Assembly (NCBI GenBank): GCA_035691485.1
Contig: DASSIZ010000069.1
Location: forward strand, 186,001 to 250,000
DNA: 64,000 nucleotides
Direction of reading: 5' to 3'
DNA from: Terriglobales bacterium
GTDB taxonomy: Bacteria > Acidobacteriota > Terriglobia > Terriglobales > Acidobacteriaceae
The notes under the pieces were generated by a model. That model was not told the DNA's origin and made no database searches. It saw only the letters and a list, made by a program, of their open reading frames with translations. The translations under genes and the position numbers were made by a program. This document shows positions 10,967 to 22,792 of the stretch, piece after piece (the first letter of the stretch is position 1; each line of letters starts with the position of its first letter).

Positions 10967-12877
10967 TCACCGCACAACGATGGCGGTCATCAGCTTCGCC
11001 TTGGTAACGGCATTTTCGACTTCTAGTGGGATTTCGCCCGACGCATCGCTTCGGAAAGTGAAATCGTAAGTCTCGCCCGAGGCAATGTGCAGTGTCGCGT
11101 CGCCGCTCTTGGCCAAACGAGCGGGAACAATGGCGCCGTCCTTGGCGAGAGGAGTCCAAGTCGCGGGCTTGTCCTTGGCGCCGAGGCGGAAGTTCGCCGG
11201 AAGATTCGGCGCCATGTTGATCAAGCGCAGCCGGTAGGACACGCCGCGGGTGAGCGCCAGCGGCTGCGGCTTTTCCATGCCGTTGATGGTAATGCGCTTG
11301 GCATCGAAGAACGGATCGCGCGAACCGATGACCAGCAGCTTGTCATGCTCGGCATCAAAGGTCTGCCCTGGCTCCAGCACGATAAGCGCTCCATAGATGC
11401 CGCCGGTAAGCTGGCCCGGGTCGGCCGCGTGGGTGTGATAAATGAAGGTTCCGGCCCGTGTGGGAGTGAAGCGAGCGACAAAGCTGCCGCCCGGCGGAAT
11501 GGCGGGCGTAACCTGGTCGCCGATGCCGCCGCCTATCACGCCGTCGTAATAGCTCTCCAGTTCGAGCCCGTGCCAATGAATAGCGGTGGCTGACTTGAGA
11601 CGGTTGAGAACGGTAATCTCGGTCAATTCGCCACGCGTGACCACGATCGGTGGCCCAACAGCCCCATCCGCGGAAACCGTCAACTTGTTTTTCTCGCGCA
11701 CGGAACAACTGAATCTGTTTTCGGCGGCTGCGGCCTCAGCGTTAGGTTCGACGATAAGGTCGAGTTTCCGAGCGGGCCGGTTCGAGACCGCCGGTGTTGC
11801 ACCCGGCCGCGACTTGATGTTGATTGCCAGAACCAGTCCAGCCATGTCGTGCATGCCTTCCATGGCGCCGGCATGGTTCGGGTGAGCGCCAGGGGCTGGC
11901 GGCTGCGGGTCGTACTGGCTGGGTATGGCGCGCGCGAATACGGGCAGGCGCTCGTCAGTCGACATGTGGAATTGGAAGTGACAATGAAACAGCCAGCGGC
12001 CGGCATTCTCAGGCGACCATTCCAGCATCATTGTGCCGCCTCCCTTGAGGTCCTGGGTAACCACGGATTGACGGTCGTCGCCCTCGAACTGCGTGTCCGA
12101 CTCCTCATTTCCCAGGCTTAGCAGCTTGTAGAAAGCGCCGTGCAGGTGCATGGGATGCTCGCCGAAGGCCGGATTGATGACGCGCCAGCGGATGGTGTCG
12201 CCTACCGTGTAATCCAGCGGTTCAGTAAAGGGAAATGACTTGCCATTGATGCTGACGACTTCGAAATCATCGTGCGTCACATCGGGCTTGACAAACATTG
12301 CGTTGAGGACGAACACGCGGTCAGAGACGACGGCGCCAAGCGGATCCACGATGAAGGCGCCGTTCAGTTGGGCGTCTTCAAAAATCGGCCGCGGCAGCGG
12401 CGGAAGTATCCCGTAAGCCACAGGAACCGTGGTGCGCGCCCAGTAAAAATACGTTCCGGGAACGCCGGCGGGAAAAGTACGCTCGCGAGTTTCGCCGGCG
12501 GGAACCTCGATTACATCTTTTGTGTCGCCCGGGTGAGTATGGAAACCGTGCACTGCTGCCGCGACCTTCAGCTTGTTGGTGAGAATCACGTGGACCGTGG
12601 TGCCTTGCGCGACGCGCAGCAGGGGCCCCGGAATCTGCGCCGGCTTGCCCGCCTCGCCGAAAGCCTGCACGTACAGCTTTGGGCCATCGTCAGCTTCGGG
12701 GTGCCAAGCGCCGCTGACAATCTGAAGATGAACGGTGAGGATGCCCGCTTCCATTGTGCCGGCGGACGTGCGGTTCTGGTTGGCGACAATGGGTAGCGGA
12801 CCATCGGACTGCGCCAGTGACGGCAGGGCGCACAGGCAAACGAGCACCGCGCAAAAGCGCAGGCGGATATTTTTCAA
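10967..12877 (-). CDS. Secreted multicopper oxidase with permuted copper-site order
   Basis: About 636 residues from a TTG at 12875-12877 preceded by GGGGTGAT; a TTG 57 bases upstream is less likely because it leaves the signal peptide internal. Residues 1-24 are a signal peptide ending in SLAQ. Copper ligands appear in an unusual order. First comes a weak HGFHTH site (about 110-115). Then come HPMHLHG (241-247) and HCHFQFHM (298-305), which normally close a multicopper oxidase. After a Met/His-rich linker (about 332-348) come HWHG (434-437) and HTH (481-483), which normally open one. A ligand-free cupredoxin domain ends the protein. It is a periplasmic oxidase, of metal ions or phenols; the substrate is not determinable. 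Confidence 0.85.
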   Translation of the reverse strand: MKNIRLRFCAVLVCLCALPSLAQSDGPLPIVANQNRTSAGTMEAGILTVHLQIVSGAWHPEADDGPKLYVQAFGEAGKPAQIPGPLLRVAQGTTVHVILTNKLKVAAAVHGFHTHPGDTKDVIEVPAGETRERTFPAGVPGTYFYWARTTVPVAYGILPPLPRPIFEDAQLNGAFIVDPLGAVVSDRVFVLNAMFVKPDVTHDDFEVVSINGKSFPFTEPLDYTVGDTIRWRVINPAFGEHPMHLHGAFYKLLSLGNEESDTQFEGDDRQSVVTQDLKGGGTMMLEWSPENAGRWLFHCHFQFHMSTDERLPVFARAIPSQYDPQPPAPGAHPNHAGAMEGMHDMAGLVLAINIKSRPGATPAVSNRPARKLDLIVEPNAEAAAAENRFSCSVREKNKLTVSADGAVGPPIVVTRGELTEITVLNRLKSATAIHWHGLELESYYDGVIGGGIGDQVTPAIPPGGSFVARFTPTRAGTFIYHTHAADPGQLTGGIYGALIVLEPGQTFDAEHDKLLVIGSRDPFFDAKRITINGMEKPQPLALTRGVSYRLRLINMAPNLPANFRLGAKDKPATWTPLAKDGAIVPARLAKSGDATLHIASGETYDFTFRSDASGEIPLEVENAVTKAKLMTAIVVR

Positions 12878-13503: not shown

Positions 13504-13839
13504 CTATTTCTGCTGCTGGCCATACGTAAGGTTGACCGAGGCCCCCGAGCCTTCGGCGACCTTGCCGCTCAGCGGACCGCGCCCCTCTTCCGGAGCAACG
13601 CCCGCGAGTTCGCGCTTGCGGTTTTCGATGGCCCGCAACTCGCGCAAGATCTCGCCCTCGCGCTCGACGTATTCATCCTCCGCGATCTCGCCGGAATCGA
13701 GCAGCACCTGGAGTTCAAGCAGGCGCTCCTTCACCGGCGCGTCATCGGTGTATTGCTCCTCGGCAATGCGCTGCACGGTGCGCAGGATGAACTTGAACCC
13801 GGTGATCGGCGCGAGCAGAAGATCGTCAATGAAGAGCAT
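13504..13839 (-). CDS. gvpG: Gas vesicle protein GvpG
   Basis: A 111-residue GvpG homologue: a hydrophobic start (MLFIDDLLLAPITGFKFILRTV) followed by a charged helix rich in Glu and Arg (about 25-80). The protein then ends in a low-complexity tail. GvpG is an accessory protein thought to act with GvpF/L in loading or nucleating the GvpA shell and is not an abundant shell component. It is the last gene of the cluster, 99 bases after gvpL. The spacer before it holds short inverted words of the type TTGCCGAA, not a promoter. No strong ribosome-binding site precedes the ATG. Confidence 0.88.
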   Translation of the reverse strand: MLFIDDLLLAPITGFKFILRTVQRIAEEQYTDDAPVKERLLELQVLLDSGEIAEDEYVEREGEILRELRAIENRKRELAGVAPEEGRGPLSGKVAEGSGASVNLTYGQQQK

Positions 13840-13938: not shown

Positions 13939-14862
13939 TCACGATCCCGTTCCTCTCTCCAGTTTCAAGCGGATGTTGACGAAGTTGTACGGCGGCCAAG
14001 GGCCAGTGTACTTGAAGTTCAAACGGTCGCCGAACTTGCGTGCAATTTTGTTCACCGCCTCGTCGAAGTCGGTTTCTTTCTCGCGGTCGATCAGGAAGGC
14101 GGCGTTCATGATCATCTTGTCGCCAATCGGCTTGTTGTCGCGCGAAGCGACGCACACGCTGCGCAGGGTGTCGTAAATCTCGCGGACGTACTGCGCCGAG
14201 CGCTCCACCATCGCCTTGTCAATCATGCGCCCCAGTTGCATGCGGGCGAGGTAGGTGGATTGCAGGTGTTTGCGCGTGATCTCATGATTGAAGCGGTGAA
14301 TTTCCTCGTCCTCGCGCTTCAGTTCCTCGATCACCTGGTCGCGGTCCCAGTTGACCTTCAATCCGAATTCCACCTTGCCGGCCATCTGCTTGAGCACATC
14401 TTTCAGGGAAACGTAAATGCTGCGCAGGACCTCGCGAATATCGTCGTCGGTGCGGAACACGGTGCCGAAACTCATGGGGATAATGGTGAACGCCTTCATC
14501 ACCGTCTCGATCACATGCTCGTGGGCGAGAGCGTTTTCCCGGGTCGGATCGAAAATGTAAACGTCGGTCTTGCTGACGACGGCAGCGATGTCGTTGTAGT
14601 GGATCGTGTACACCATCTCGCCGGTGCCGCCAATGCCCATTTTGCCGAAGTTGACCGCGTCGCGCGCTTCGATAATTCCGTAAACGTAGCGCCCGCCGAG
14701 ACCCGGCGCGGGCGCAGCTGCCGCCACTTCCGGACCACCGCGTTCTACCATGCGAGGCAGAGGCATCTCCGATATCTTGACGTGCACATCCTCGGTCGTG
14801 ACTTTCTCCGCCTTACGAGGCTTGGGAGCGGTGCGCACGCTTCCCGTCTTCTGTCTGTTCAT
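13939..14862 (-). CDS. gvpL: Gas vesicle protein GvpL/GvpF (copy with basic N-terminal extension)
   Basis: A 307-residue GvpL/GvpF protein. Residues 1-55 are a basic, proline-rich extension. The family domain starts at GRYVYGIIEARDAV and includes HEHVIETVMKAFTIIPMSFGTVF, a long charged helix region (about 150-215), and the closing hallmark FKYTGPWPPYNFVNIRL. This family is a minor gas-vesicle constituent needed for assembly, possibly as a GvpA chaperone. The ATG at 14862 follows GGAG by four bases. Its first 50 bases overlap the end of the response-regulator gene, a long overlap that suggests translational coupling. It is one of three divergent GvpF/L copies in the cluster. Confidence 0.9.
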   Translation of the reverse strand: MNRQKTGSVRTAPKPRKAEKVTTEDVHVKISEMPLPRMVERGGPEVAAAAPAPGLGGRYVYGIIEARDAVNFGKMGIGGTGEMVYTIHYNDIAAVVSKTDVYIFDPTRENALAHEHVIETVMKAFTIIPMSFGTVFRTDDDIREVLRSIYVSLKDVLKQMAGKVEFGLKVNWDRDQVIEELKREDEEIHRFNHEITRKHLQSTYLARMQLGRMIDKAMVERSAQYVREIYDTLRSVCVASRDNKPIGDKMIMNAAFLIDREKETDFDEAVNKIARKFGDRLNFKYTGPWPPYNFVNIRLKLERGTGS

Positions 14863-15235
14863 AGTTCTCCTTCAAGACCGTTGAAATCGTTTCCAGGAAC
14901 TGCTGAATCTCAATCGGCTTGTACAGAACATCGATGCCAAGCTGCTCTGCCTTCTGCGCGGCTTCTGAACTGGCGTAGCCGGTCAGCAGCACGCAGGGAA
15001 TCTCGGGGTTGGTCTGGCGAGCAAATTCCAGCACCTCGAACCCTGTATGCCCTTCTTCCAGCGACAAGTCGCAGAGCAGGAGATCGAATGCCGTCTTTTC
15101 GATCGCGGCAATCGCCTCCTTCGACGAAAGCACGGCGGTCGCCGCGTATCCGTGCTGCTCGAGCAAAACACGATAGGTGAATAGCACCGAGGCTTCGTCG
15201 TCCACCACCAGCACGGAATGTTTCCGCTTCTTCAT
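14813..15235 (-). CDS. Single-domain (CheY-like) response regulator
   Basis: A 140-residue receiver domain without an output domain. The ATG at 15235 follows AAGG; the open frame extends further upstream but overlaps the kinase gene and has no homology. The acidic pocket is Asp12/Asp13 (VLVVDDE), the phospho-acceptor is Asp56 (LCDLSL), and the conserved LTGY and KPI elements are present. With no DNA-binding part, it must act by protein contact or phosphotransfer. It lies 43 bases after the sensor kinase and overlaps gvpL, so a role in controlling gas-vesicle formation is inferred from position. Confidence 0.9.
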   Translation of the reverse strand: MKKRKHSVLVVDDEASVLFTYRVLLEQHGYAATAVLSSKEAIAAIEKTAFDLLLCDLSLEEGHTGFEVLEFARQTNPEIPCVLLTGYASSEAAQKAEQLGIDVLYKPIEIQQFLETISTVLKENYEQTEDGKRAHRSQAS

Positions 15236-15278: not shown

Positions 15279-17405
15279 TCAGCGTACGACCGGCAGTTCA
15301 AGCTTGAACGCGGTTCCCTTGCCTTCGCGACTGCGAACGCGGAGTTTGCCGCCATGATTCTCGATGATGCCTTTGACAATCCACAACCCGAGCCCGGTGC
15401 CCTTTTCGCCCTTGGTGCTGACGAAAGGTTCGAACATGGTCTGCAACAGATCGCGCGAGATGCCGCTACCGGTGTCGGCCACAAGAATGCGCACCCAGCC
15501 GTGAACGCCGTCGGGCACGGAAACATGACGGGTGCGGATTACCAGGTGGCCGCCCTTCGGCATGCTGTCCTTGGCATTGACCACCAGGTTCGAGAGCACC
15601 TGGCGGAACTGGTCGGCGGAGCCCACGATCGGCGGCAGCTTGCCCAGATCCACGCGCGCACGGATGCCGCTGCGCTCCAACTGGCGCGCGAACAAGGCAA
15701 TGGTGTCCTCGATCACGTTGTTGACGTCCATCGTGCCGACCTGGTCGGTGTTGCGATACAGGCCGAGCATTTGCCGGACGATGCGCGCCACCCGCTCGGT
15801 TTCGCTCTTCAGCACGGTGTAGATCGGCTGCGCCTTGGGTTTGACTTGCCCGTCGAGCAGGTAAATGGAATTCTTGATCGCTTCCATGGGGTTATTGATT
15901 TCATGGGCGATGGTGCCGGCCAGCCGGCCGGTAGCCGCAAACTTCTCGATTTCGAGCATGCGGCGCTCCACCTTCAGCTGTTCCAGCTTTTTCCAGGTGG
16001 AGAAGTCGCGCAGCACGGTGACGGTGTAGGAAACTTGGCCGCGCGCATCGTAGATCTTCCCTGAGCGCGCCTCGAAATCGACTTCCGTCTTCGTACTCGG
16101 GTTGTAGAGACGCAGTGGCTCTGTTCCCTTGTCGTCGAAGGAGAAGGTGAAGCGCGTGAGATAGGCATCGAGCTTGGCGTAATTCTTGAACTGGATCGGC
16201 TCGCGCGGAGCTTCGCCCACTCCGAACAGCTCCTTGGCGAGGGGATCGTAGAGCACGATCTTGGCGGCGCTATCGGCCACGACGATCGGGTCGCCAACGT
16301 TTTCGATGACCAAGTTCAGCCGGTCGCGGTCCTGGCGCACGACTTCTTCGGCCTGCATCAGCTTGTCGAGATTGGCGCGCACTTCCTGGTCGGCGCGACG
16401 CAAGTCCGTGACGTCGCGCATCACCGTGACCATGCCGGTGCGAATGCCTTCGCGGCTGTACGTTGGCGCGCATACCGCCTCGAACAGCACTTCTTCGCCC
16501 TCGCTCACGTCCACCAGCGTCAGGTCGCGGGAAGTATCGGTGCCGCTCACCGCCATCGAAGACAGCGCCGCCGAAAACAGCATGTTGTTTAATTCCACGG
16601 CCCGCATGCCGCCTTCGCTCACCTCTTCCGGGATCCGGAAGAAGCGCTCCGCCGCCTTGTTCTGCGTGACGACGCGGTGGTGCGTGTCGGTCAAGATCAC
16701 CGGGTCGGCCATGCTCTCCATTACCGTCTGCATCTGCGAGATGGTGGTATCCATGTCGCGCATCCGGTTGTAGTAGTGCTCGACCTTGAACAGGCGGGCC
16801 AGGTAGCGGTTGCCCAGTTCAATCAGCGCCTCGGCGTCCTTGAGCTGGCGCTCTGGCGTTTTCGACTTCAGCCCGACAATCACCATCGCGGCGTAGGCCC
16901 GCATGTCGCACGCGGAGCACACCTGCTCCTGCAACTGAAGCTTGCGCGGGTGGCGGAAATTTGCCACCGCCAGGCAATCGTGGCGGCGCTCTCGCTCTGC
17001 CTCCCAGCACAGGTTCTGGTTGCGATAGATCAGCGGATGGCAGTACAGGGCGGAGCCGCCGTTGACGTTGGTCAGCACCGCCGGCTTCATGCTGTGCAAC
17101 ACGGAAACCAGCGGGTTTTCACTGGCCCAAAGCGACGTCTCCAGCCCTTGGAGAAAAGCGGAAGAGCAGTTCAGAGCGGCGCCAGCGCGGACCTCACCAC
17201 TTTCGAAATCCACCGTCAGGCTGGCCGCACGCGGAAATCCGAGGGTAACGATTTCTTCCAGGAGGACGGGAAAGATTTCGTCAGCCCGTTCCGCGGCGAG
17301 CAGCCGCTGTGCGGCGCGGCTCCGGACCATCCGAGGCGCACGCGTCGACGGCTCCTGCTCCGCGGGCGCGGTGACAATGCGCATTTCCGGCGTGGCCATC
17401 CCCAT
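15279..17405 (-). CDS. Cys-rich GAF/PAS sensor histidine kinase in the gas-vesicle operon
   Basis: A soluble 708-residue kinase with no membrane span. The N-terminal region (about 30-200) looks GAF-like and holds six cysteines: Cys80, then Cys122, Cys133, Cys144 and the pair Cys163/Cys166 (CSAC). Two PAS domains follow (about 225-340 and 362-470), then the HisKA box with His501 (AHEINNPMEAIKNS). The ATPase domain has the N box around Asn610, a DTGSGI G1 box and a GTGLGLWIVKG G2 box. The cysteine pattern could bind an iron-sulfur cluster, heme or zinc and so sense oxygen or redox state; that is inference. It lies between gvpA and the response regulator on the same strand, so it is probably co-expressed with gvp genes. 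Confidence 0.92.
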   Translation of the reverse strand: MGMATPEMRIVTAPAEQEPSTRAPRMVRSRAAQRLLAAERADEIFPVLLEEIVTLGFPRAASLTVDFESGEVRAGAALNCSSAFLQGLETSLWASENPLVSVLHSMKPAVLTNVNGGSALYCHPLIYRNQNLCWEAERERRHDCLAVANFRHPRKLQLQEQVCSACDMRAYAAMVIVGLKSKTPERQLKDAEALIELGNRYLARLFKVEHYYNRMRDMDTTISQMQTVMESMADPVILTDTHHRVVTQNKAAERFFRIPEEVSEGGMRAVELNNMLFSAALSSMAVSGTDTSRDLTLVDVSEGEEVLFEAVCAPTYSREGIRTGMVTVMRDVTDLRRADQEVRANLDKLMQAEEVVRQDRDRLNLVIENVGDPIVVADSAAKIVLYDPLAKELFGVGEAPREPIQFKNYAKLDAYLTRFTFSFDDKGTEPLRLYNPSTKTEVDFEARSGKIYDARGQVSYTVTVLRDFSTWKKLEQLKVERRMLEIEKFAATGRLAGTIAHEINNPMEAIKNSIYLLDGQVKPKAQPIYTVLKSETERVARIVRQMLGLYRNTDQVGTMDVNNVIEDTIALFARQLERSGIRARVDLGKLPPIVGSADQFRQVLSNLVVNAKDSMPKGGHLVIRTRHVSVPDGVHGWVRILVADTGSGISRDLLQTMFEPFVSTKGEKGTGLGLWIVKGIIENHGGKLRVRSREGKGTAFKLELPVVR

Positions 17406-17426: not shown

Positions 17427-17726
17427 CTACCGGCGAGCCGCTCCGGCACGGGCCGGTACGCGGCTGACGCGGCGCGTAGTTTCCACCACGGCGGGCGCGG
17501 TCTCCTCCGCCAGTTGCGGACGCGAAACCAAGCCGGTCAAGCCTACCGCGTCGGCGTACTTTAAATAGGTATCGATCGACGCCACGACTACGCGCGCCTC
17601 GACCGTGATCAGGTCGATGCCGACCAGCGAGATGCGCACCCATGCGTCAATGACAATGCCCTTGTCCAATACGCGATCAAGAACATCGATTAGGCTCGAC
17701 CCACCCGATACACGTTCAACAGCCAT
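17427..17726 (-). CDS. gvpA: Gas vesicle structural protein GvpA
   Basis: The main shell protein: [23 protein letters not shown], then [41 protein letters not shown], matching the classic GvpA fold of helix, two beta strands and helix that forms the ribs of the gas vesicle. At 99 residues it is longer than the usual 70-80, because of an Ala/Arg/Pro-rich C-terminal tail from about residue 66. A strong AGGAGG lies eight bases before the ATG, the best ribosome-binding site in the cluster, as expected for an abundant protein. It follows gvpJ by 18 bases and precedes the kinase by 21. Confidence 0.95.
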
Positions 17727-17744: not shown

Positions 17745-18065
17745 CTACTTCTTGCGTCGACCGCTGCGCGCCCGCTTGGCCGGGGCCGGGGGCGCCAGAA
17801 TTTCTGCTTGCGGCGGCAAGGGCCGGCGCGTCCGCGGCGCCGGTACTGCCTGCTGCGTCAGGTTGGGATCGTACTTCCACCAGTTCAAGCCGATCTGCTC
17901 CGCCTTGTCCACCGAACATACCAGCAGGCGAATGCGGATGGTGAGCAATTCCACGTTGGCAAGGGAAACCCGGACATCGCCGGCGATCACGAGCCCTTTA
18001 TCGAGCACGCGGTCCAGGATGTCGATCAGATTGGTGGTGCCTGAAACAGTCGGTATTCGTTCCAT
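17745..18065 (-). CDS. gvpJ: Gas vesicle protein GvpJ (GvpA-family minor protein)
   Basis: A 106-residue GvpA paralogue. Its core [52 protein letters not shown] ends in the NWW element characteristic of GvpJ, which separates it from the structural GvpA next door. A Pro/Arg-rich basic tail (about 70-106) follows. GvpJ is a minor component thought to shape the conical ends or nucleate vesicles. The ATG at 18065 opens the second half of the cluster after a 268-base spacer, so a promoter for gvpJ-gvpA-kinase-regulator-gvpL-gvpG may lie in that spacer. Confidence 0.88.
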   Translation of the reverse strand: MERIPTVSGTTNLIDILDRVLDKGLVIAGDVRVSLANVELLTIRIRLLVCSVDKAEQIGLNWWKYDPNLTQQAVPAPRTRRPLPPQAEILAPPAPAKRARSGRRKK

Positions 18066-18333: not shown

Positions 18334-18690
18334 CTATTCCAACAAGTTGCCCAGAGGGCCCAACGCCAGGTTCAAGTCCTCTGGTTTCAGGCCGAACTGC
18401 CCGGCCATTTCGTGCACTTTCTCTTCCAGCTTCATCAGCGCCTGTCCCATCTCTTCCACTTGCTGATCGCTAAGCGACCCGCCTTCCATCCGCCGGATGG
18501 CCTGTCGTTCCAGTAACCGCCGGAGCAACTCGATCAAGCTCAGAACCAGCTTGGCAAGGCCCTGCTCGATGCTCTCGGCAGAACAGTCGATGCGCTGGGC
18601 GGCATCGGCGGCATGGGAATCCAGTTGTCGGCGGACCCCGTCCACGGCCGCCGCAATTTGCTCCGGAGAAACCTGTAACGTCTCGCTCAT
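18334..18690 (-). CDS. gvpK: Gas vesicle protein GvpK
   Basis: A 118-residue GvpK homologue. The ATG at 18688-18690 is chosen because it overlaps the stop of gvpF as ATGA and matches the family start; the longer open frame begins 33 bases earlier inside gvpF. The sequence has SPEQIAAAVDGVRRQLD, the central helix LAKLVLSLIELLRRLLERQAIRRMEGGSLSDQQVEEMG, and a C-terminal LNLALGPLGNLL motif. GvpK is required for gas-vesicle formation in studied clusters; its biochemical role is unsettled. The spacer of 268 bases that follows separates the two halves of the cluster. Confidence 0.9.
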   Translation of the reverse strand: MSETLQVSPEQIAAAVDGVRRQLDSHAADAAQRIDCSAESIEQGLAKLVLSLIELLRRLLERQAIRRMEGGSLSDQQVEEMGQALMKLEEKVHEMAGQFGLKPEDLNLALGPLGNLLE

Positions 18691-19331
18691 GCAAAATCCG
18701 GAAAAAACTCGGTGGGCGGCCAAGGCCCGCTTACCGCGGCCTTTGTCGACCGCTCCAGTCGTATTTGCTTGATCTGATCTCGGAACTGCTGCACTGCTTC
18801 CCGTTTGATAAGAACGAAGCAGCGTACCCCGTACGAAAATTCCCGTTGTTGGAAGTCTATCACTAGTTCGTTAATCGTGGCGCGGCAAGTAGCGACCGCA
18901 TTTTCCATACAGCGGGAATTGTGCGCAAGATTTTTCAGATACTGGGTACCGCTGCTTGCGACTGGCGTTTCTCGATCCACCAATTCGATCCGGATTTCCA
19001 TCTGGACCATGTTCCGCAATTGATGCAGCGCGGCATTGTAAGCCTGCCCGCGTGCCTCCAGGTGTGCCCCAATCTCCGTCAATCCGGGCAGCACTGTGGG
19101 AAAACGGAAAGGAATGATCGTGCCTTGGGCGAGTAACGAGCGCGTTACCTGGTGAAATTCCAGGGCTTCGCGCTTCTGGGTCTCCAGGCCCGCGCCGACA
19201 GCGTCCAGGGCGGAGTAGAAGCAGCGCAGCTTGGCGTGAACCATGCTTTCCACCGCCTCACCCTGCACACCCCTGACCGCCGGGTCGAGTTCCGCGGTGT
19301 CATCGGTGACGCAGTAGAGCAGATACGGCAG
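18687..19331 (-). CDS. gvpF: Gas vesicle protein GvpF/GvpL, probable CTG start
   Basis: A GvpF/L protein of about 214 residues. A GTG at 19268 would give only 193 and would cut off the N-terminal strand. Reading upstream in frame gives PYLLYCVTDDTAELDPAVRG before that GTG, which aligns with the LYLYGIT start of the paralogue at 20.4 kb. An in-frame TGA blocks the frame at 19335-19337. The only candidate start is a CTG at 19329-19331, with GGAG seven bases before it. The C-terminus has the family mark SGPWPPTEFFPDF. It overlaps gvpK by four bases. Assembly role as for other GvpF/L proteins. Confidence 0.82.
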   Translation of the reverse strand: MPYLLYCVTDDTAELDPAVRGVQGEAVESMVHAKLRCFYSALDAVGAGLETQKREALEFHQVTRSLLAQGTIIPFRFPTVLPGLTEIGAHLEARGQAYNAALHQLRNMVQMEIRIELVDRETPVASSGTQYLKNLAHNSRCMENAVATCRATINELVIDFQQREFSYGVRCFVLIKREAVQQFRDQIKQIRLERSTKAAVSGPWPPTEFFPDFA

Positions 19332-19423: not shown

Positions 19424-19636
19424 CTAGCCGTTCTTCTTCAACTGTCGCAATGCGGTTTCGACCGAGGTCAGCACGACATTCACGCCCACGTAAATCAGAT
19501 CCACGCCGGCCAACGAAATGACGACGGTGCCGTGGATGACGACACCGGCGTTGAGCACGTGGTCCAGGACATCCAGCAGCGAGACATCATCCTGCGCATC
19601 GCTGCCGATCATGACGACTTCGCCGGGGCTGGCCAT
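19424..19636 (-). CDS. Short GvpA-family protein (GvpM/GvpS-like)
   Basis: A 70-residue GvpA paralogue. The core SLLDVLDHVLNAGVVIHGTVVISLAGVDLIYVGVNVVLTSVETAL has the DLIYVGxNVxLTSVET pattern of the minor GvpM/GvpS branch and lacks the GvpA tail. The true start is the ATG at 19634-19636, which overlaps the stop of the upstream GvpL gene as TGATG; a much longer open frame in the same register covers gvpL antiparallel codons and is not coding. It is probably a minor shell or nucleation protein. A 92-base spacer precedes gvpF. Confidence 0.85.
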   Translation of the reverse strand: MASPGEVVMIGSDAQDDVSLLDVLDHVLNAGVVIHGTVVISLAGVDLIYVGVNVVLTSVETALRQLKKNG

Positions 19637-20448
19637 CAGCGCGCCATTCCAGGGGCGCGACTGCCGCTCACCTTCCCCTTCTTCACTTGCTGACGGCTTT
19701 GCGACTTGACGACGACGAACGAATACGGTGGCCAGGGCCCGGTACCCTCGACGCGGAAGCGATCGGCGAAATTGTGCGCAAAACGATTCAAGAGGCTGTC
19801 GAATTTTGAGCGCCGGGAACGCGGCAGCAGGATCGAAGTTTGCCACCGAAGATTCGGCTGTCCCGATCCAACCTTGCCCCCTTCGGCCGAATCCGCCGCC
19901 AGTTTCACGATCTCTGCGGCAAATTGCTGGATCTCGGGTTCCAACGCGCGCGGAGGCTTCGCTTGCAACTGCGTCGCCTTTCGCTGCAGATACTCCTTGC
20001 CGGTACGCGCAGGGGAAGCCGCCGGCGCCGGACGCGGCTGGGCGAACACCCGAATGCCCCACTCGTCGGCGTCGGCGATTCGCTGGAAACCAGCTAGCAG
20101 AGCGGCTTTTCGGCCAGCAATATCTTCGGACAGCGATTCTTCGTTCAAGAAGATGGTGCCGAATCGCGTCGGCAGGATCGGCTGGCGTTCGTGGATGGCG
20201 CCCACCACGCGCTGGTGACGTACGCTGGCGTCGGCAAGCCACTCCAGGTTTTCCATGTTGCGGGCAAGCTGGTCGCTGAACTCGCCGGCGTCCACCCGGC
20301 TGATCCAGCAGGTAAAGCCGGACGCTTCGAGCGGCTCCACCGTCGAAACTCCGTCCACTCCGCGCAGAGATGCGGCCAGGCGCTCGGCTTGGCGGGTGAT
20401 GCCGTACAGATATAACACCGTGTTTGGCCGGTTCAGACGATCTGCCAT
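19636..20448 (-). CDS. Gas vesicle protein GvpL/GvpF (third copy)
   Basis: A 270-residue GvpF/L protein. The start is set at the ATG at 20446-20448 (MADRLNRPNTVLYLYGITR), since residues further upstream lie inside the ATPase gene and have no homology. Family marks are LYLYGITR, the central RQPILPTRFGTIF and the closing GTGPWPPYSFVVV. A Pro/Ala linker lies at about 155-175. The first 16 bases overlap the end of the ArsA-like ATPase gene and the last base pairs with the next gene as TGATG, so ATPase, this protein and the small GvpA-like protein are tightly coupled in translation. Confidence 0.9.
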   Translation of the reverse strand: MADRLNRPNTVLYLYGITRQAERLAASLRGVDGVSTVEPLEASGFTCWISRVDAGEFSDQLARNMENLEWLADASVRHQRVVGAIHERQPILPTRFGTIFLNEESLSEDIAGRKAALLAGFQRIADADEWGIRVFAQPRPAPAASPARTGKEYLQRKATQLQAKPPRALEPEIQQFAAEIVKLAADSAEGGKVGSGQPNLRWQTSILLPRSRRSKFDSLLNRFAHNFADRFRVEGTGPWPPYSFVVVKSQSRQQVKKGKVSGSRAPGMAR

Positions 20449-22361
20449 AGTTCGCCAATCAACGACTTCAGCGCCGCCGTGCCGGCTATTTCCCGTGCCC
20501 GGTTTCGTACTACGTAAATATTCTTGCCGCGATGACGGCGACGAAGCTTGGACAAGGTCTCCATCTGCCATTCCCGCGCCGCCTGGCACCGGTGACAGTG
20601 GTTCACATCCTCTGCGAACAGCACGCGGTTGACGAACAACTCGCTAGTGGAAATCCCCAGGTCATCCAAGGCGCCCAGCAGGCGCGTGGTTTCGCGGTCG
20701 GGCAGCGGTTCGGCAAGCATCACCGGGACCACTCGAGAGCTTCGGCCGTCCTTGAGCATGTTTGCCAGCTCTCGGACGCGATGCGAAAGCGTCGCGATCT
20801 GGACCGCCACGTCGCGGGCGAGAGACATTCTACGGTGCGGTGCCAGGCTTTTCAATAAAAGCCGCGACCACAGCAGGATTCGGCCGGGCATTCGCAGCAA
20901 CTCCAGCGCGTGACCGGTCGGCGCCATGTCCACGAGCAGCGTTTGTTTCTCGCCGGCCAGGTCAAGAATCCGAAATATCGCGGCAATCTCGTCCACGCCG
21001 GGCGGCACCATGTCCAGGAGCGCGGTCAGAACGCGACGCTCGAAGGAGAGATCGACATGGAGCCCGCGGACGTCCGAGCTGAAGGCATCGTTGATCTTCG
21101 CTTTCATTTCACCAGCCCAGGCGCGGAACTCGGCGGCGGCGTCCAACTCTGCGGCGCGCAGCTTGGCATCGCCGGCTACGCTGACCGGCCGATTGCCGAT
21201 TCTTTTCTGAAAAACGTCGTCGAGCGAGGGTGCCGGGTCCGTCGAGCAAATGACCACCGGCCGCGCCGGCGCGTGCTTGCGCTGGTTGACCGCGAGCGCA
21301 GCGGATAGGGTCGTTTTGCCTACGCCGCCTTTGCCCGTCGTCCATGTGATTGGCGTCTTGAGCGCAGGCCATTGGGTCGGCTGCAGCTTCACGTCATCTT
21401 TTTTCGCCGGCGTTCTTGCGATCGGACGCAGCTTCTTGCCGGCAAACACGTGCCGGCCAAATTCCAGCAGGGTGCGGGCACCCAGTGCGGGGCCACCGAG
21501 ATCTTCCGCGACATGCATTGGAATGCCGCGAAAATTGCGTTGCACGAATTGCGCGGCGGCTTTGGTGCGGGCTTTACTTTGTTTACATATCAGGCAATGG
21601 CCGTCGCTTCGGACTGCCCGATTGAGGATGACGTCGGTCACATGTAGCGGGTCGGGCGCGCTGAGCATCGCTTTTGCGGTGCGCACCGATTCCTGCAGAG
21701 CGAATTCCTCCGGCGTGGTGACCATGACAATGCGTGATTCGCGCTGGTGCAATGCCGCCTGCACCGCCCCCACCATGGCGCGCCATTCGGCGATGAACGG
21801 ATTGCTTGCCGCAACCGAGCCGCCAAAGTGCTCCGCCAGTACCTGGTCGCGACTGCCGGCCAAGTCCAAAAGATCGAGAAAGCGCGCGAAATATTCCGGC
21901 ATTTCGAAGAGCCGCAGCGTGTGGCCAATGGGCGCGGTGTCGACCACGATTTCGGCATAGCGGCCGCGCTCCAGAGTTTCGTGAATGGCCAGCAGCGCCG
22001 CCATTTCCGCCATTCCCGGCAACGTGGTATCCAGCAGCGGTTCGATCTCTTCGCGCGAGAACAGCGTGCCGCTTTCCAGCAATGACACGATCGCTACCCG
22101 ATATCTATCGAGGAACTTGCGAAACTGCAGCTCGGCATTCACCTGCCATACCGTGAGCTTCGCCGAACCGCCAAGCGGTAGCAGTCGCAGCTTCGACCCG
22201 AGCCGGACCTGGAAAACGTCGGCCAAGGAATGCGCCGGATCGGTGGAGAGCAGCAGCACCGGCCTTCGCGGCTTGGAATTCGCGCGGTACACCGCGTACG
22301 CCGACGCTACCGTCGTCTTTCCGACTCCGCCTTTGCCGACAAAAAAACTGAGGGCCGACAC
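20433..22361 (-). CDS. Tandem ArsA/Get3-like ATPase heading the gas-vesicle cluster
   Basis: A 642-residue two-half ATPase. Each half has a deviant Walker A with signature lysine (GKGGVGKTT at 9-17 and 343-351), a switch I-like STDPAxSL, and a switch II DTAPIGHTLRL or DMAPTGHALEL. Each half also carries a CxxC pair (CLIC at 256-259 and CHRC in the second half), as in Get3-type proteins that bind zinc and hydrophobic helices. ArsA proteins drive arsenite pumps, but no arsenic gene is near. Its overlap with a gvpL gene argues for a gas-vesicle role, perhaps handling the insoluble GvpA family; that is inference. The start is a GTG at 22361 with a weak ribosome-binding site. Confidence 0.9.
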   Translation of the reverse strand: MSALSFFVGKGGVGKTTVASAYAVYRANSKPRRPVLLLSTDPAHSLADVFQVRLGSKLRLLPLGGSAKLTVWQVNAELQFRKFLDRYRVAIVSLLESGTLFSREEIEPLLDTTLPGMAEMAALLAIHETLERGRYAEIVVDTAPIGHTLRLFEMPEYFARFLDLLDLAGSRDQVLAEHFGGSVAASNPFIAEWRAMVGAVQAALHQRESRIVMVTTPEEFALQESVRTAKAMLSAPDPLHVTDVILNRAVRSDGHCLICKQSKARTKAAAQFVQRNFRGIPMHVAEDLGGPALGARTLLEFGRHVFAGKKLRPIARTPAKKDDVKLQPTQWPALKTPITWTTGKGGVGKTTLSAALAVNQRKHAPARPVVICSTDPAPSLDDVFQKRIGNRPVSVAGDAKLRAAELDAAAEFRAWAGEMKAKINDAFSSDVRGLHVDLSFERRVLTALLDMVPPGVDEIAAIFRILDLAGEKQTLLVDMAPTGHALELLRMPGRILLWSRLLLKSLAPHRRMSLARDVAVQIATLSHRVRELANMLKDGRSSRVVPVMLAEPLPDRETTRLLGALDDLGISTSELFVNRVLFAEDVNHCHRCQAAREWQMETLSKLRRRHRGKNIYVVRNRAREIAGTAALKSLIGELWQIV

Positions 22362-22498: not shown

Positions 22499-22792
22499 AT
22501 GCCCAACTGGAGAAAAGCTCTTGTCATTGGATCGCTCAGCGCAGGCGCTTTGATGTTCATCAAAGGCCATCGACCGGCGGGAGTCGCGCTGGCGAGCGTC
22601 GGGCTGGCGGTGCTCGCTGCCGAGTACCCCGAGAAGTTCGAATCGGTGTGGGAGAACGCGCCCGACTACATTTATCGCGGCACGCAGATCTTTTCCACGC
22701 TGTCACGCATTGCCGAACGGTTTGCTGACGAGGCCGGCCGACGCGGCGCCATCGAAGCCTTCCGCGACATCAGCGCCGAGTACGCTCGATAA
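22499..22792 (+). CDS. Small membrane-associated protein, divergent from the gas-vesicle cluster
   Basis: A 97-residue protein of no recognised family. A strong GGAGG lies six bases before the ATG. Residues 6-42 are hydrophobic and could form one or two membrane helices (ALVIGSLSAGALMFIKGHRPAGVALASVGLAVLAAEY). The rest is an amphipathic helix with Asp, Glu, Arg and Ala (about 60-95). It is transcribed away from the ATPase gene across a 137-base shared spacer, so it may be co-regulated with the gas-vesicle genes. No functional claim can be made beyond that. Confidence 0.7.
   Translation: MPNWRKALVIGSLSAGALMFIKGHRPAGVALASVGLAVLAAEYPEKFESVWENAPDYIYRGTQIFSTLSRIAERFADEAGRRGAIEAFRDISAEYAR

Follow-up and report, generated by a model that had tools for sequence, protein, structure and literature searches.

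A tandem ArsA/Get3-type ATPase encoded with gas-vesicle genes in a Terriglobales genome: recurrence, separate origin and a possible role in shell-protein delivery

Gene content of the locus

The window, by which we mean the whole 64,000-nucleotide stretch analyzed here, carries on its minus strand a run of gas-vesicle (gvp) genes whose first member (20433..22361) encodes a tandem ArsA/Get3-type ATPase of 642 aa, hereafter gvp-ArsA, with two matches to PF02374 (ArsA_ATPase; 9.9e-86). The gene is a single open frame with a GTG start and a TGA stop, and an open frame on the opposite strand begins beyond its start, at 22499. The first gene downstream encodes a GvpL/F-family protein of 270 aa (19636..20448; PF06386, 1.5e-38; start read from the sequence), whose ATG at 20448 places 16 nt (20433–20448) in common with the gvp-ArsA gene. 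It is followed, all on the minus strand, by a small third GvpA-family paralogue of about 70 aa (19424..19636; PF00741, 3.5e-14), whose inferred ATG start overlaps the stop of the preceding gene, a second GvpL/F-family protein (18687..19268; PF06386, 3.4e-19), GvpK (18334..18723; PF05121, 9.1e-34), a GvpJ-like GvpA-family protein (17745..18065; PF00741, 4.5e-17), and the main shell protein GvpA of 99 aa (17427..17726; NF006874, 115 bits against a cut-off of 100). The distal part of the run, also on the minus strand, comprises a PAS-containing sensor histidine kinase (15279..17405; HATPase_c, HisKA, and PAS), a response regulator receiver protein (14813..15235; PF00072, 3.8e-19), the frame of which is open from 15526 and the start of which, near 15235, was inferred from the domain, a third GvpF/L-family protein (13939..14862; PF06386, 2e-77), and GvpG (13504..13839; PF05120, 3.2e-17), the last gene. 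Roughly half of the clusters without GvpN described below likewise contain a kinase and a response regulator, and sensor control of buoyancy by this pair is possible. Scan scores for promoters and terminators of the operon did not exceed those of shuffled sequences.

The two halves of gvp-ArsA span residues ~1–311 and ~335–642. Both P-loops (residues 9–17 and 343–351) read GKGGVGKTT, and the switch II segments are DTAPIGHTLRL in the N half and DMAPTGHALEL in the C half. As its CxxC pair, the N half has CLIC (residues about 256–259) and the C half CHRC (about 589–592). An earlier note, made from the sequence alone, had described two ArsA/Get3 halves, each with GKGGVGKTT, a switch II GHxLxL and a CxxC pair, in the first gene of a gas-vesicle operon that overlaps a gvpL gene by 16 bases. 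The twofold Pfam match and the motif reading bear out the domain description, the overlap is exact, and the minus-strand run to gvpG at 13504 confirms the position of the ATPase, while the kinase, the response regulator, and the terminal gvpG are additions to that description.

The window genome (3.84 Mb, 98.5% complete) contains no second ArsA/Get3 protein, the next PF02374 matches being short P-loop matches of 22 bits. Neither of the arsenite pumps Acr3 and ArsB was found genome-wide, so that the earlier statement that no arsenic genes are present extends, for these pumps, to the entire genome. GvpN was not detected above the cut-off in this genome, and the gvp-ArsA protein itself did not match the AAA+ GvpN model TIGR02640. 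Positions 10967–32263 of the window form a variable region downstream of HisS-AspS, with a multicopper oxidase, DinB, the gvp operon, and two DUF3857 proteins. The stretch holding the operon is absent from the corresponding site in the two other genomes assigned to the window's genus (G073 and G121; AspRS 87–88% identical), which means that gvp clusters vary in type and position inside one genus.

Association of the ATPase with gas-vesicle genes

Among 396 genomes of the same phylum, 23 carried GvpK. A profile of gvp-linked ATPases yielded 14 full-length, single-frame matches above 690 bits, and all 14 were located in gvp loci of GvpK-bearing genomes; the next full-length match scored 339 bits, approximately half as much. 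The gvp locus was split in two of these genomes (G067 and G254), where the ATPase adjoins GvpG and GvpF/L. Because the profile had been built from gvp-linked proteins, the search was repeated with the window ATPase as the sole query, and the best 11 other genomes were again all GvpK-bearing, the first genome without GvpK ranking twelfth. Of 15 clusters, 11 kept the order GvpF/L–GvpG–ATPase, and the genes frequently overlapped. ATPase and GvpK distances were correlated across 14 clusters (Mantel r = 0.82, p = 1e-4), a value that still includes species relatedness. Taken from sequence and gene order, a functional link between gvp-ArsA and the gvp genes is strongly supported. Chance adjacency, which the earlier note had set against its own reading, is ruled out by the confinement of the 14 full-length relatives and by the single-query search, and the linkage is recurrent. 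The ATPase is not universally required, since gvpK occurs without it in two GvpN-less clusters (G293 and G325) and in five genomes with GvpN.

From the plasmid searches, the gvp-linked relative taken further was the Nostoc p4 protein. A peptide-pattern scan of genome contigs for named relatives retrieved only a Verrucomicrobia arsA-acr3 operon (Akkermansiaceae, L007:2426-5402), which encodes a true pump ArsA and was used as the pump control.

The association itself is not new. Castillo and Saier reported in 2010 (PMC2963123) that the gvp operons of members of four phyla contain tandem, two-domain arsA homologues of ~640 aa; one of these, acidobacterial, is listed with two L/F, J, K, and M and without gvpN. 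In their proposal, the ATPase provides the energy for a step of biogenesis other than the one served by GvpN. The window protein resembles the members of their clusters 4 and 6 in having two ArsA domains, a gvp operon, and no ars genes. The separate duplication, the CxxC/PGxxE contrast, and the GvpN-less operon type, all three of which are presented here, do not appear in the passages of their paper that were consulted, and these, together with the fixed gene order of GvpF/L, GvpG, and the ATPase, are what is new. No later experimental work on the function of gvp-linked ArsA was found in the literature searched.

Sequence motifs, predicted structure, and descent

At the positions of the pump residues Cys113 and Cys422, all 31 gvp halves carry a Get3-like PGxxE motif. 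Arsenite-binding Cys172 occurs in none of the 31, whereas all three cysteines (113/172/422) were present in 8 of 8 pumps; the window protein has G, R/P, and G at the Cys113, Cys172, and Cys422 sites, respectively. CxxC, which within the set is confined to gvp halves, was found in 21 of the 31 and is missing from the other 10. Both window halves retain intact switch motifs and a P-loop with its signature lysine, with the variants DPAPS and DMAP in the C half. Large hydrophobic residues make up a greater share of the helix after switch II in the gvp halves (41 and 53%) than in the pumps (30–31%; Mann–Whitney p = 1.4e-6, not corrected for descent). Unlinked single-domain Get3-like proteins have a helix similar to that of the gvp N halves; the hydrophobicity thus marks Get3-likeness and not a Gvp client. 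Adjacent pairs of ~330-aa Get3-like genes were also observed (L067, L068, L072, L075-L079, and L091), in which the first gene carries GKGGLGKTT/DLVPLGHA and the second DTAPTANA without GH, and the loci read had no gvp link.

The AlphaFold model of gvp-ArsA (pLDDT 82, pTM 0.85) matched two-domain ArsA, the algal tandem protein Cr-ArsA1, and Get3 in Foldseek. Arsenite ATPases ranked above Get3, because both they and gvp-ArsA are two-domain chains; bacterial ArsA (R773, 1f48; L. ferriphilum, 9nbl) shares this layout and the fold, but gvp-ArsA differs from it in lacking Cys113/172/422, in its separate duplication, and in having no partner pump in the genome. With the NCBIfam ArsA equivalog, the score was 170 bits, below the cut-off of 650. 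The best PDB sequence match was Cr-ArsA1 of Chlamydomonas (5zme and 5zmf; 1.3e-39), likewise a single-chain tandem Get3-like pseudodimer, but a eukaryotic one that carries hydrophobic tail-anchored proteins of the chloroplast and has no CxxC. Yeast and archaeal Get3 (TRC40) shares the CxxC zinc motif and the hydrophobic helical subdomain, and one half of the predicted gvp-ArsA model superposes on it with a TM score of about 0.7–0.8, depending on the target; Get3, however, is a homodimer of single-domain chains whose delivery target is the ER or another membrane, while gvp-ArsA is one fused chain linked to gas vesicles.

In a tree of 80 half-domains that included gvp, pump, and Nostoc plasmid halves, the gvp N halves were sister to the gvp C halves in a joint clade (100/98) that includes the Nostoc plasmid protein. 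Both window halves grouped with the gvp-linked halves of Nostoc, a member of another phylum (100/98), although their long branches leave their exact place within the gvp clade unsure. The pump N and C halves were placed elsewhere, and a single duplication common to gvp and pump proteins was rejected (AU p = 4.7e-5 and 2.8e-5). The half-domain sequences thus indicate that the gvp-ArsA tandem arose by a duplication separate from that of the arsenite pump, and the clustering with pumps that the earlier note had considered as a counter-argument was not found. Three further tandem ArsA proteins (L073:8816-10960, L074:9094-11016, and L087:7961-9811), which keep the Cys113/422 positions and have no Cys172, branch beside the pumps.

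A putative delivery factor for GvpA-family proteins

GvpA is thought to require chaperoning; for the gas vesicles of Bacillus, this role has been proposed for GvpF and GvpG, and that of an elongation factor for GvpN (PMC11445434). The most likely reading, to which we give about an even chance, is that gvp-ArsA uses ATP to chaperone or deliver the hydrophobic proteins of the GvpA family. It draws on ATP sites that are intact in sequence, the lost arsenite site, the Get3-type motifs, and co-inheritance with the gvp genes. With two Get3-like halves in one chain, the protein would form a pseudodimer that needs no partner. In the ATP-bound closed state, both halves would shape one hydrophobic groove, which could take up an amphipathic or hydrophobic segment of GvpA, GvpJ, or the small third paralogue; the client would be received from, or jointly with, GvpF/L and GvpG, the fixed neighborhood of which suggests that gvp-ArsA works with both. 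ATP hydrolysis would then open the groove and let the client go at the growing shell, so that Get3-like chaperoning would have the gas-vesicle shell, and not a membrane, as its destination. Cr-ArsA1, an ~80-kDa monomeric pseudodimer that carries tail-anchored proteins, provides a precedent (PMC11170914).

The energy-driven chaperone suggested in the earlier note is compatible with the Get3-like motifs and hydrophobic helices, but a second chaperone may be unnecessary given the role already proposed for GvpF and GvpG (PMC11445434). One GvpN-less genome (G170) encodes a fusion of two GvpF/L domains (L043:4732-6489, minus strand) that adjoins a truncated gvp-ArsA. A J-domain match, weak and under the cut-off, separates the two domains; this is only a hint of chaperone coupling.

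Relation to GvpN and alternative roles

GvpN was found in 9 of the 23 GvpK-bearing genomes and was absent from 14. The gvp-ArsA gene occurred in 11 of these 14 (including the truncated copy in G170, where GvpK lies at a contig edge and GvpN may therefore be unassembled) and in 4 of the 9 GvpN-bearing genomes. A profile of 12 GvpN proteins gave only weak P-loop matches in the GvpN-less clusters. The GvpN-less operon with gvp-ArsA as its only Get3- or GvpN/AAA-type ATPase is thus a recurrent type. A CDC48-like AAA ATPase of ~700 aa (CDC48_N and two AAA modules) was observed in most GvpN-bearing clusters (L033, L034, L040, L041, L044, L050, L060, and Nostoc L032:11743-13584) and in no GvpN-less one.

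This distribution bears on the proposal, made in the earlier note, that the ATPase may replace GvpN, that is, that it supplies energy for shell elongation by acting on the growing shell and not as a carrier of soluble clients. The loss of GvpN halts elongation in model species (PMC11445434), GvpN is missing from the whole window genome, 11 of the 14 genomes without GvpN have gvp-ArsA, and GvpN-less clusters are also devoid of the CDC48-like ATPase. Strict replacement is contradicted by the co-occurrence of both ATPases among the gvp genes of four genomes (G073, G121, G266, and G290) and of Nostoc, with G073 and G121, from the window's own genus, having a GvpN-type cluster together with gvp-ArsA. 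Moreover, G293 and G325 have neither ATPase, the negative association was not significant (Fisher p = 0.18, for clusters that are not independent), and an AAA+ ring differs in fold and oligomer from a Get3 pseudodimer, the homology between the two gvp-cluster ATPases being limited to the P-loop. Replacement is therefore weakly supported, and we regard a substitute role as unlikely.

Somewhat less probable still is a nucleotide-dependent switch that acts on GvpF/L–GvpG or on the operon's kinase and regulator and times the start of assembly, holding no hydrophobic clients. Deviant-P-loop ATPases such as ParA/MinD often act as switches, and the overlapping genes, the fixed order next to GvpF/L and GvpG, and the shared operon with the kinase and regulator would fit such a role, but several gvp-ArsA genes (f26 family) have no adjoining kinase or regulator genes, and a Get3-type function is what the conserved hydrophobic helices and the CxxC pairs suggest. 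Targeting of tail-anchored proteins to the membrane, with the gvp operon as a mere address, could account for the Get3-like motifs in the sole Get3-family protein of the window genome; it is improbable given the strict confinement of gvp-ArsA to gvp loci and the presence of other Get3-like genes elsewhere in the relatives' genomes, such as the pairs in G073 and G121. An arsenite efflux ATPase placed beside gvp genes by chance, despite the shared Pfam family, two-domain layout, and top Foldseek match, is rejected, as far as sequence can show, as extremely improbable on the missing cysteines, the genome without Acr3 and ArsB, the AU test, and the low equivalog score.

Significance

The window ATPase is a genuine new member of a known, unexplained, and non-random association. 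With a separate tandem origin, a Get3-like signature, and a GvpN-less operon type, the 2010 proposal becomes directly testable, 16 years on. We tentatively suggest that some gas-vesicle operons make up a second class, devoid of both GvpN and the CDC48-like ATPase, where the delivery of shell subunits is driven by a pseudodimer of Get3 descent as the sole Get3- or AAA-type ATPase; if so, Get3-type chaperoning would have been recruited for a gas-filled protein shell and not for membrane insertion.

The question bears on how insoluble GvpA stays soluble and enters a gas-filled shell. Gas vesicles serve as ultrasound reporters, and a factor of the Get3 type found exclusively in gvp operons would be a defined and testable candidate for energy-driven delivery that might improve heterologous gas-vesicle expression. 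The work of the Get3 family would then extend past membranes and arsenite.
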